Shown here piece by piece: positions 28,914 through 37,830 of a stretch of 43,864 bases of DNA. The position numbers and the translations under genes are program-made. The notes beneath the pieces were generated by a model. The model was not told where the DNA came from, did not search any database, and saw only the letters and a list, made by a program, of their open reading frames with translations. The stretch is from Planctomycetota bacterium (lineage in GTDB: Bacteria; Planctomycetota; Phycisphaerae; UBA1845), in the NCBI GenBank assembly GCA_013151185.1, contig JAADIU010000277.1:13053-56916 (forward strand), read 5' to 3'. Every line of letters starts with the position of its first letter. Positions within the stretch are counted from its first letter, which is position 1.

Positions 28914-30083
28914 CTACCCGCCCGGGATGACTTCTACCGTTCCACTTAGCACACCGATGCCTTGGAAGCCGATCGGTTCGGATGCGTCATCCAGCGTGAC
29001 GAGGATGGTGTCTCCGCAGTTGACGTGGGTGCCTACCACGAGGATGCGCTCGCCTTGGCGCGAGACGCTGACTTCGTCGAATCCGGGTGAGCCCGTTCCG
29101 TCGCCGGTCAGGATCACCAGCGCGGTGGTTTCCTGATCCTCGGGCGTTTCGGGATTGGGGTAGGTGGCTGATATGGTGTACTGCGTCCCGCACGCGAACA
29201 CACCTTCCGTTTGCTCACCGGGCGGAACGGTCACGGTGAATTCCGGATCGTCCACACCGGTGCTCAGCTTCACTACGGCTGTCGCGATCACGTCGCCGTC
29301 GTTTGCAATTTGAACGAGGATGTCCGTCGAAACAGGCTCTTCCGTGCCATCCCCACCTTCGCCCGCACCCGGATCGACGATCGGATCAAACGGTGATGTT
29401 TCGCCCGGTCCCACGACAGCCAAGGTTCCACCGGGCGTCTGCGTAGACTCCGCACCGACCCCAACACCATCATCACCCACGCGAATCACAATGCTGTCAC
29501 CACAACCGAAGTGAACCGTTCGAATCAGAAAGCGCTCACCCGATTCGCCCACGCTGCCTTCGTCGAAACCAAACGTGCCCGTGCCATCCCCCTCGAAAAG
29601 AATCTGCGCTTCACTGGTCTCGATCGTTCCGGTGATGCGAATCGATTCGCCGCACGACAAAAATCCCTCGCTCAGCGCAAAACCCGGAACCCGCACCGTC
29701 GCCTGCGTACCGATCGCAAGCGGTGCTCCCAGCGTTGATCCTTCGCCCTCGACATCGCCTGTTCCTGCGCCGGCCAACGATGCAGCAGCGGCAGCCGCTC
29801 CGACCGGTTCCAGCGTTGAGAAACTCACACTGCCCGGTACCACCGTAACCACGGGGATGCTCACCGCGCCAAATCCACCGTCCACATCCAGCAGGTTGCC
29901 GTTGGCGTCGAGCACTTCGACTGTGATTTGCACCGGGCTTGCGGTGGCATTCTCGATGCGAAACGCAGAAACAGCCCGGGCGGCAGACAAGGGTGATCGC
30001 GTCAAACACGCACTCGTCAAAACCACCAACACTGCGATCGGAAGAAGAGCGAAGCGTAAGACCCGCGTTTTGATTTGCGACAT
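28914..30083 (-). CDS. Predicted lipoprotein with a duplicated beta-rich domain
   Basis: ATG at 30083: MSQIKTRVLRFALLPIAVLVVLTSACLT (lipobox-like TSAC); two related units ending GDGTGTFGFDEGSVGESGERFLIRTVHFGCGDSIVIRV and GDGTGSPGFDEVSVSRQGERILVVGTHVNCGDTILVTL. Confidence 0.8.
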   Translation of the reverse strand: MSQIKTRVLRFALLPIAVLVVLTSACLTRSPLSAARAVSAFRIENATASPVQITVEVLDANGNLLDVDGGFGAVSIPVVTVVPGSVSFSTLEPVGAAAAAASLAGAGTGDVEGEGSTLGAPLAIGTQATVRVPGFALSEGFLSCGESIRITGTIETSEAQILFEGDGTGTFGFDEGSVGESGERFLIRTVHFGCGDSIVIRVGDDGVGVGAESTQTPGGTLAVVGPGETSPFDPIVDPGAGEGGDGTEEPVSTDILVQIANDGDVIATAVVKLSTGVDDPEFTVTVPPGEQTEGVFACGTQYTISATYPNPETPEDQETTALVILTGDGTGSPGFDEVSVSRQGERILVVGTHVNCGDTILVTLDDASEPIGFQGIGVLSGTVEVIPGG

Positions 30084-30480
30084 GACACCACCTGCCCAAT
30101 GGACGATTGACTCGGCGCGCTTGGCACGACCTACCGGTGTGCAATCGGCAGAGTTTGAACCGCAGTGAATATCGAAACCCATCGCTGGGCGGAAAGACAT
30201 CTTGATGATTGCATCTGTGAAATGAAAAGGCCCGATAATGTGCTTGCAAACAGCATTGTTGCGCATAAAGTGTAGCCTGCCAACGTTGGGAGCCGATAAC
30301 ATTCCCGGTGGTTGGCTTGGGCTTTCCAAGTCGAAAACCCGCCACAAGTCGTGTGCCTGAACAAACATGTGCCTGAACAAAAGGCAGAAGATGCAACGGT
30401 GAGCAGCAGGAGGCGGGCTCACATGCATCTCGGACAACATCAAGCGCCTCGCTACGGATGGCGATAAGCCGCACCATCTC

Positions 30481-31974
30481 ATGAGAACCATTGCCGTTGC
30501 GAACCAAAAGGGCGGATGTGGGAAAACCACCATCGCCATCAACCTGTCTGCGATGCTGGCCCGCGAGGGTCGGCGTGTTCTGCTGATCGACATGGACCCG
30601 CAGGGCCACTGCGCCCTTGGCTTGGCTGTTCCCGAGGAACAGATCGACCTGAGCGTGCTCGACTGTTTACTCAGTCAGCACAAAGGCGAGCCGATAGAGA
30701 TCGAGCGCATCCGCTGGCAGATCACCCCCAATTTCGATTTGGCACCGTCGCGCCTCGACCTCTCGCGCATCGAGTTGTCGTACACGAGCGAGAATATTCC
30801 AAGCACGCTGCTTCGCGACATGCTGGCCAGCATCGACAACAAGTATGATTACGTCATCATCGACTGTCCGCCGCACGTTGGCCTGCTCACACGAAACGCC
30901 ATCCACGCTGCCGACAATATCGTGATCCCGGTCGATACGGGCTACTTTGCTTTGCACGGGCTGACGCAGCAGCTTCAAACCATCCACGACATCGACCGCG
31001 AGGAGAACACATCGAAGAATGTGCGCGTTCTTGCAAACCAATACGACATTCGCACGAAGCTGGCCCGCGAGATCCTCGCCGAACTGCGCAAGCGTTTCGG
31101 GAATGTCATGTTTGAAACCATCATCAACTTCAACACGAAATTGAAAGAGGGCGCGAGCTTCGGCCAACCGATTACAGAATTCTCGCCCAATAGCATGGGG
31201 GCGCGAGATTTCCTGAAACTCGCCCGCGAAGTGATGGTCCTCGAACCGAAGGTTACCCCGGCAGAAACAATCTTGGCGCAGGCAGAACGGATGGCTAAGG
31301 AAGCAGACCAGCTCCTCGCAACAACCGCCAGCCTGATCAAACAGGGCGAGGGGCAAAGCAAAACTGTCGACGCGCAAAAAATCGAACCGAAAGAGCAAAC
31401 CGCTTCGACCAACCGCTTGCCCAATCGCTCATCCACGCTGGCACCCACGAACAAAACAGTGACCCCACAGGCAAAGGCCCCGCAGGTGAAGAAGACCGAG
31501 CCTGCAAGCCCGATGGCATCCACAAATTCGGCGGCTACGCGTCCGCCCAGCATCGTAGCTCCGCGAACGGACAACACAAACAAGACGCCCAGTCTGAATA
31601 AACCAACAGGGAACTTGAAGGCGGCATCATCGTCGCCATCATCCGCAGAAGAAATCGAGCGCAAGATCGAAAAAATCTACGGCGTGCAACAAACTCCCAC
31701 GGGCACACTGTTTCGATTGCACGGAGACGACGCACGAGAGGTTCAGATCGCGGGTGACTTCAATGATTGGATGCCGCACACGACGCCGATGAAACGTGTC
31801 GGCCAGGATTTTGAAGCGCTCCTCCAGCTTGATCCGGGGCGATACCGCTATCGCGTGGTTGTCGACGGCCGATGGTCGCACGATAAAGCCAACCCCGAAA
31901 TCGAAACGAATCAATACGGCGAATGGAATTCGATCGTGAACGTCAACGCGCAAAGTCAGCAACGGGCGTCATGA
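30481..31974 (+). CDS. ParA/MinD-type ATPase fused to a C-terminal AMPK-beta/CBM48-like glycogen-binding domain
   Basis: MRTIAVANQKGGCGKTTIAINLSAML (deviant Walker A), LLIDMDPQGHCALGL, YDYVIIDCPPHVGLLTRNAI; after a Pro/Thr/Ser-rich linker: TLFRLHGDDAREVQIAGDFNDWMPHTTPMKRVGQDFEALLQLDPGRYRYRVVVDGRWSHDKANPEIETNQYGEWNSIVNV. Confidence 0.9.
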   Translation: MRTIAVANQKGGCGKTTIAINLSAMLAREGRRVLLIDMDPQGHCALGLAVPEEQIDLSVLDCLLSQHKGEPIEIERIRWQITPNFDLAPSRLDLSRIELSYTSENIPSTLLRDMLASIDNKYDYVIIDCPPHVGLLTRNAIHAADNIVIPVDTGYFALHGLTQQLQTIHDIDREENTSKNVRVLANQYDIRTKLAREILAELRKRFGNVMFETIINFNTKLKEGASFGQPITEFSPNSMGARDFLKLAREVMVLEPKVTPAETILAQAERMAKEADQLLATTASLIKQGEGQSKTVDAQKIEPKEQTASTNRLPNRSSTLAPTNKTVTPQAKAPQVKKTEPASPMASTNSAATRPPSIVAPRTDNTNKTPSLNKPTGNLKAASSSPSSAEEIERKIEKIYGVQQTPTGTLFRLHGDDAREVQIAGDFNDWMPHTTPMKRVGQDFEALLQLDPGRYRYRVVVDGRWSHDKANPEIETNQYGEWNSIVNVNAQSQQRAS

Positions 31975-35034: not shown

Positions 35035-36288
35035 ATGTCCGAGACAAACTACAACCCCTTTCGCACCGCGCAGGCACAACTCGACCAAGCCATGGAGGTC
35101 CTCGGCCTTGAACCGTCGATGCGGGAACTGCTCCGCTGGCCCATGCGTGAATACCGATATCGCCTGCCCGTCCGCATGGATTCGGGCGAAGTCCAGATCT
35201 TTGATTCGTATCGCGTTCAATACAACCACGCCCGGGGGCCGACAAAGGGTGGTTTGCGTTGGCATCCCGATGAAACCATCGACACGGTTCGCGCCCTCGC
35301 CTGTTGGATGACATGGAAGTGCGCCGTTCTCGATTTACCGCTGGGCGGTGGCAAGGGCGGTGTGACGTGCAACCCGACATCGCTTTCGACGTCGGAAAAA
35401 GAACGACTTGCACGGGCATATATTCGAGCGGCAGGCCATCGCATGAGTGTCGATCGCGACGTGCCCGCGCCCGACGTACACACCACACCCCAGATCATGG
35501 CGTGGATGCTGGACGAATACGAAACGATGATGGGCTACCATCACAGCGGGGTCATCACGGGCAAACCGATTCCACTCGGCGGGTCGGCTGGCAGAAATGA
35601 AGCCACGTCACTCGGTGGTGTGGTCGTTGCCCGCGAAGTCGAACGCGTATTGGGTCACCCGATCAAAGGCGCCCGTTGCGCGATTCAGGGTTTTGGAAAT
35701 GTCGGCGGAATTCTCGCTCGCCTTCTTCATGAACGCGGTGCCAAGGTGATCGCAATCAGTGCGGTGGATGGCGCAATCTTCAACGAAGGTGGCATCGACA
35801 TACCCGCAGCGCTCACCTATTACAACCGCAAGATGCAGCAGCTTGGCGGATTCGACGGCGGAGATGCCACCACCAACGAGCAACTGCTCACCTGCGACTG
35901 CGACATGCTGTTCCCTGCCGCTCTCGAAAACGTCATCACCGAAAGCAACGCGAACGCAATCCAGGCGAAGGTCGTCATCGAGATGGCCAACGGGCCCACC
36001 ACACCGGAAGCCGACAAGATCCTCCATCAACGCGGTGTGTTCGTCGTCCCCGATATTCTGGCCAACGCGGGCGGTGTCACCGTTTCGTATCTTGAGCAGG
36101 TTCAAAATACCTACAACTACCATTGGTCGTTAAAAGATGTACACAGCGAACTGGAGCGCCGGATGACCAGCGCCTTCAAAGATGTCTACGCTGAATACGA
36201 GCGCATCGACGGCCCGATGCGGTTGGCGGCATATTTGCTCGCCGTCGAACGCGTGGCTGAGGCTTGCCGTTTGCGGGGGTGGGTGTAG
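35035..36288 (+). CDS. Glu/Leu/Phe/Val dehydrogenase (417 aa, NAD-type GDH-like)
   Basis: GPTKGGLRWHPDETIDTVRALACWMTWKCAVLDLPLGGGKGG, VPAPDVHTTPQIMAWMLDEYE, CAIQGFGNVGGILARLLHERGAKVIAISA. Confidence 0.95.
   Translation: MSETNYNPFRTAQAQLDQAMEVLGLEPSMRELLRWPMREYRYRLPVRMDSGEVQIFDSYRVQYNHARGPTKGGLRWHPDETIDTVRALACWMTWKCAVLDLPLGGGKGGVTCNPTSLSTSEKERLARAYIRAAGHRMSVDRDVPAPDVHTTPQIMAWMLDEYETMMGYHHSGVITGKPIPLGGSAGRNEATSLGGVVVAREVERVLGHPIKGARCAIQGFGNVGGILARLLHERGAKVIAISAVDGAIFNEGGIDIPAALTYYNRKMQQLGGFDGGDATTNEQLLTCDCDMLFPAALENVITESNANAIQAKVVIEMANGPTTPEADKILHQRGVFVVPDILANAGGVTVSYLEQVQNTYNYHWSLKDVHSELERRMTSAFKDVYAEYERIDGPMRLAAYLLAVERVAEACRLRGWV

Positions 36289-36423: not shown

Positions 36424-37830
<1,407 letters not shown>

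Follow-up and report, generated by a model that had tools for sequence, protein, structure and literature searches.

The locus studied here raises the question of why an ATPase of the ParA type is joined in one protein to a carbohydrate-binding module (CBM) of the AMPK-beta/CBM48 kind, and what such a protein might do in the cell. By the window we mean the whole stretch of DNA analysed, 43,864 nucleotides from a planctomycete of the class Phycisphaerae. A preliminary description of it had read the N-terminal ~260 residues of the protein as ParA, the C-terminal ~85 as an E-set/CBM48 domain and the segment between them as a low-complexity linker, and these three readings agree well with the profile searches and the structural model (Table 1). 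Pfam AAA_31 matches residues 1–177 (E 1.6e-50), the ParA domain ending at residue 253, and AMPK1_CBM (PF16561) matches residues 415–491 (E 1.9e-15, 57.3 bits against a cut-off of 26.8). In the AlphaFold model the ParA domain is followed by a helix (261–289), a disordered linker (~290–385), a lead helix (389–399) and the CBM from about residue 401, near the earlier estimate. The pLDDT exceeds 90 across most of both domains, so that the C-terminal E-set fold is predicted with high confidence, and falls below 50 in the linker.

A sequencing frameshift or an assembly chimera could have joined two genes artificially. The reading frame in the window is uninterrupted over its 497 codons, and the artefact is ruled out because the same single open reading frame is found in 86 distinct homologues, most of them from separate assemblies; judged from the aligned sequences, such recurrence is far more than chance would give. 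Measured against the window protein, these 86 homologues have a median identity of 57% in the ParA domain and 48% in the CBM, compared with 14% in the linker. The linker also varies widely in length, with 46 to 225 residues separating the two domains in homologues. Divergence of the linker with conservation of both domains is what would be expected if both were selected as parts of one two-domain protein. We consider it practically certain that the gene encodes a ParA-CBM48 fusion.

Table 1. Coordinates of the fusion gene, its parts and associated genes. Positions are those of the window, except for the partner family, where they are preceded by the locus.
Feature	Coordinates	Strand	Basis
Lipoprotein-like gene containing repeated segments; divergent to the fusion, whose upstream region it shares	28914..30170	-	No Pfam family
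ParA-CBM48 fusion gene, 497 aa	30481..31974	+	ORF, ATG to stop; Pfam, PDB sequence matches, AlphaFold
Soj-type ParA ATPase domain, residues 1-253	30481..31239	+	AAA_31; 8ray/1wcv/6iub matches; Foldseek 2bek
Deviant Walker A motif KGGCGKTT, residues 10-17	30508..30531	+	K10, K15, T16 invariant in 87 sequences
Helical region after ParA domain, residues 254-292 (model helix 261-289)	31240..31356	+	AlphaFold
Disordered low-complexity linker, residues 293-388	31357..31644	+	pLDDT mostly <50; median identity 0.14
Lead helix 389-399 and AMPK-beta/CBM48 E-set domain to residue 489	31645..31947	+	PF16561; 1z0n; pLDDT about 95 over domain
W430, equivalent of AMPK beta-1 W100	31768..31770	+	87/87; 1z0n alignment
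R458, at AMPK beta-1 K126 site	31852..31854	+	Arg in 87/87
W465, equivalent of AMPK beta-1 W133	31873..31875	+	87/87
Partner family members	L087:9683-11221, L069:9348-10829, L091:9219-10652, L101:8464-9135		C-terminal domain without recognised family in long members

The ATPase part belongs to well-known territory. In a sequence search of the PDB the fusion protein matched ParA 8ray with E 2.9e-48, and Foldseek superposed the ATPase on Soj 2bek with a TM (target) of 0.91–0.93; among the matches listed, the nearest solved folds are Soj (2bek), ParA 8ray and Helicobacter pylori Soj, followed by McdA. The deviant Walker A motif with its signature lysine (KGGxxK[S/T]) is present. Residue conservation was counted over 87 sequences: K10, K15, T16, D39, D128 and D189 are invariant (87/87 each), R191 is kept in 82/87, and position 220 is Lys in 80/87 and Arg in 5; R191 and K220 align with basic residues of Soj. 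On this sequence evidence the protein is a member of the ParA/MinD deviant Walker A ATPases, a predicted ATPase with its catalytic residues intact.

Such closeness to Soj and ParA speaks for another explanation, that the fusion is the chromosomal ParA of these bacteria, that it works with an orphan ParB and that the CBM is incidental. The arrangement of the ParB genes speaks for it too, as the main ParB has no adjacent ParA in the inspected Phycisphaerae loci (L165–L168, L170–L174). As the preliminary description had remarked, there is no parB in the window, and this is borne out as far as tested, since the only ParB found in the genome (90% complete) lies on another contig (C287, with the fusion on C29), so that no parB adjoins this parA. 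Other evidence speaks against it. ParB is present in 24/24 genomes tested, including those without the fusion, so families that lack the fusion still keep ParB; a second Soj-like ParA is found in carriers and non-carriers alike; and one genome from outside the class (G285) has a normal parAB pair besides the fusion and a candidate partner of the fusion's own. We therefore think that the fusion is most likely not the chromosomal ParA, and that this explanation is very unlikely. The second ParA is encoded elsewhere in the genome, in several genomes near a gene that by eye looks VanZ-like.

The C-terminal domain matches, besides PF16561, the CBM_48 profile (E 2.3e-7) and, in the PDB sequence search, the CBM of AMPK beta-1 (1z0n; E 2.2e-12 with the full protein, 8.4e-14 with the C-terminal 101 residues alone) and LSF1 8j5d (E 2.2e-7). 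The best 50 Foldseek matches of the fusion are all ATPases, and the relation of the CBM to AMPK rests on sequence. In AMPK, mutation of W100, K126, W133, L146 or T148 lowers glycogen binding (PMC2642990; PMC6274970). Loss of the carbohydrate-contacting aromatics was looked for in the fusion family; the key tryptophans were found invariant instead. G480 (G147 in beta-1) is also kept in 87/87, and position 483 is Asn in 79/87. The L146 site is occupied by Phe or Tyr and the T148 site by Glu in 80/87. The invariance of W430, W465, R458 and G480 suggests that the sugar-stacking platform has been kept, with changes at two contacts, and these changes imply that the ligand may differ from that of AMPK.

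The same two changes can be taken further, to an E-set domain that has turned into a protein- or other-polysaccharide-binding module with no affinity for alpha-glucan, the ATPase positioning some other cargo such as a surface-polysaccharide machine. BcsQ provides a precedent, as ParA-like ATPases can serve polysaccharide machines, and no glycogen gene is a conserved neighbour; the match of the fusion to the BcsQ profile TIGR03371 is weak, 96.4 bits against a cut-off of 157.85. We judge this unlikely, because two stacking tryptophans and a basic residue that are invariant in 87 sequences are hard to explain without sugar binding, and because stand-alone relatives of the CBM sit in alpha-glucan operons. 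Stand-alone AMPK1_CBM proteins of 109 and 118 residues are encoded in apparent Phycisphaerae alpha-glucan synthesis operons (L138:4287-10844 and L139:7596-10892), in the first directly upstream of GlgP-GlgA-GlgB and in the second in the order GT4-GH57-CBM, where the CBM scores 131 bits with a model of the fusion CBM. The window's genome also encodes a second AMPK1_CBM fusion (L137:1860-3422, contig C106), Met/Gly/Lys-rich and exported-looking with the CBM at its C-terminus, beside a gene whose product has oxidoreductase NAD/FAD and 2Fe-2S domains.

The preliminary description went on to propose that the protein positions or segregates glycogen or another glycan cargo. This is plausible and consistent with the evidence, but a specific link of the fusion to glycogen genes finds no support: the loci compared have no glycogen gene as a conserved neighbour of the fusion, and the presence of the fusion tracks no glycogen pathway. 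GlgA (TIGR02095) exceeds its cut-off in 1/198 genomes, GT3 is found in 12/25 fusion carriers versus 8/20 non-carriers, the GlgB equivalog in 9/45 genomes, GT35 in 73/80 and GH57 in 70/80, and all five fail to separate carriers from non-carriers, so that co-occurrence with a synthesis route had to be discarded as an argument. The fusion is absent from several families that have alpha-glucan genes, and at least one carrier (G016) gave no match to GT3, GlgB or GH57. Since alpha-glucan genes of some kind occur in nearly all tested genomes, with and without the fusion, the comparison has little power either way. The window's genome itself has a eukaryote-type GT3 glycogen synthase (PF05693, about 888 bits; L136:1516-3474, contig C110), GT35 phosphorylase matches and a branching-enzyme-like match below the cut-off (C336, 230 bits). 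Phycisphaerae are mostly without GlgA, many of them having GT3 and/or GH57 genes in its place.

That the fusion correlates with no single glycogen route would suit a general sensor rather than a mover. The CBM would then report the alpha-glucan level, as in AMPK, and by tuning the ATPase would make a Par-type process follow the energy store, be it chromosome segregation, the choice of division site or the handling of another cargo; in AMPK the homologous domain is indeed an inhibitory glycogen-sensing domain (PMC2642990). We regard this as rather unlikely, as the long disordered tether suits reaching for a particle no less than allostery, and no second output is known.

Function could not be taken from the genes around the fusion in the window. 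The tested aminotransferase, PFK, pilin-like and membrane-protein genes are not kept beside it beyond close relatives, the exception being the divergent lipoprotein-like gene, which tblastn finds head-to-head with the fusion in related genera (L006–L008, L014, L023/L057, L028/L046, L031, L035, L036, L048, L049). Its tie to the fusion system is a candidate link. No McdB or carboxysome genes were found among the adjacent genes scanned with Pfam. Further along, the window holds two different glutamate dehydrogenase genes in tandem (35035-36288 and 36469-37830).

The fusion is spread through much of one class. Of 60 relatives the great majority have it as a single reading frame, as do 79 loci of public assemblies, whose labels are nearly all Phycisphaerae, Phycisphaerales or Planctomycetota; the four loci that bear the labels Alphaproteobacteria or Actinomycetes/Actinomycetota probably come from mislabelled bins. 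About 110/198 Phycisphaerae genomes sampled have a high-scoring copy (best E below about 2e-24). The split between carriers and non-carriers is set by a score threshold, with which some divergent carriers, for example G167 and perhaps G132, where a partner gene lies near the CBM, may be miscounted as non-carriers. Outside the class, 1/112 genomes sampled elsewhere in the phylum matches at that strength, and this copy (G285) is a ParA-CBM. In the tree the ATPase domains of the fusion stand apart from the second ParA that these bacteria possess (support 92/90), with the G285 sequence on a long branch. As far as these sequences indicate, the fusion may have had one origin across its carriers. An origin from plasmids or phages was discarded, as the CBM has no match there.

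In many carriers the fusion is accompanied by a second gene. A same-strand gene follows, usually within 0–350 bp, in 26/80 loci of a first clustering and in at least eight more by profile search. The survey of genomes added several further families with this gene next to the fusion, among them a family of the order to which the window belongs (G036, 3 bp downstream). In the same survey it was absent beside the fusion in the window's genus and in the other tested members of its family. In the window's genome a single-sequence search for it came back empty, and the profile search found only an FlhG-like, P-loop-bearing protein encoded separately (L164). Since the partner is missing in this lineage, the earlier reader could not have seen it, and no activator is known there.

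Nothing convincing was found for the partner in Pfam with nine sequences, nor anything in NCBIfam with two. In its model a short N-terminal helix precedes a MinD/FlhG-like middle domain and a C-terminal domain; the middle domain matches FlhG 4rz2 with E 7.7e-8 in a partial superposition (TM (target) 0.48), and by inspection there is no Walker A motif. In two distant members the N-terminal helix resembles the LGRG peptide of ParB. The G285 candidate starts with MMKRKKLGRGIEDFIG, close to the N-terminus of the ParB of the same genome, MSEKKLGRGLDFLISG, and in the partner at L091, a locus with the label Sedimentisphaerales, one reads GRGISSIAHHFL. According to a review (PMC9178275), ParA is probably stimulated by the N-terminus of ParB, and by analogy we infer that these helices may do the same. 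The G285 candidate is linked to the other partners by a weak profile match (probability 15%), which does not establish homology. The partner is an undescribed P-loop-less protein of MinD fold, and may exemplify a MinD fold turned ParA activator. The same fold suggests a regulatory pair, as a glycogen sensor might have.

Taken together, the best reading of the sequences and models is that the fusion is an alpha-glucan-binding positioning ATPase of the ParA/MinD family, unpaired with parB and with its cargo or sensor domain built in. To positioning by an ATPase that carries its own alpha-glucan-binding domain we give a probability of about 0.5. Like Soj, the ATP-bound dimer would bind non-specifically to the nucleoid. 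The CBM would hold a particle of glycogen or another alpha-glucan, by which the polymer store would be distributed along the nucleoid and divided among the daughter cells. Hydrolysis would be switched on by the short N-terminal helix of the partner and, in lineages without a partner such as that of the window, by another factor. Granule positioning is in this sense what we infer. It counts against it that we know of no ParA system in which the cargo adaptor is fused to the ATPase, instead of being a separate protein. The fuller proposal, an ATP-driven glycogen positioning system that much of the class has conserved, with the cargo receptor in the ATPase and a pseudo-MinD activator whose trigger peptide resembles that of ParB, we put forward tentatively, as a possibility that falls short of an even chance.

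Little is known about the placement and inheritance of bacterial storage polymers. Positioning systems for carboxysomes, magnetosomes, PHB and polyphosphate granules are covered by a review of 2025 on the positioning of bacterial organelles, in which glycogen goes unmentioned (PMC13052382). In the open-access literature we found no description of a ParA fused to a module that binds glycogen or other carbohydrates; both modules are known, but neither their union in one protein, nor the conservation of that protein across the class, nor the pseudo-MinD partner was found there. As read from sequences and models, the fusion of a ParA with a module like that of animal AMPK suggests that sugar stores are placed, shared out or sensed in an ATP-driven manner that has yet to be described. 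In our opinion, a class-wide ParA with an AMPK-type glycogen module would make ATP-driven partitioning of glycogen, or coupling of a Par process to the energy store, testable in cultured Phycisphaerae.

The known systems resemble the fusion in part. With Soj/ParA of the ParABS systems it shares the ATPase fold, the catalytic residues and the likely DNA-binding residues (37–41% identity to 2bek/8ray in the Foldseek alignments), and it differs by a C-terminal CBM on a disordered tether and by the lack of an adjacent parB. The carboxysome-positioning pair McdA/McdB likewise has a ParA-type ATPase, with a probable non-DNA cargo and a separate activator being what we propose for the fusion; in the fusion, however, the cargo-binding module is joined to the ATPase itself, the partner is a pseudo-MinD and not McdB, and McdA matches the sequence weakly, over residues 1–173 only. 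FlhG/FleN, which are MinD-like, share the fold of the partner's middle domain, whereas the partner lacks the Walker A motif. PhaM, PhaF and AlgP have the proposed job in common with the fusion, holding storage granules on the nucleoid, but are of a different molecular type, DNA-binding granule proteins. The glycogen-binding domain of AMPK beta (PF16561, CBM48) has the same E-set domain, the equivalents of W100 and W133 and a basic K126 site; in the fusion it is joined to ParA and not to a kinase scaffold, with Glu at the T148 site and Phe or Tyr at the L146 site. In plant PTST and LSF1 a CBM48 recruits a second protein or domain to glucan granules; like the fusion they bear a CBM48, but they do so without an ATPase and in a eukaryotic plastid.
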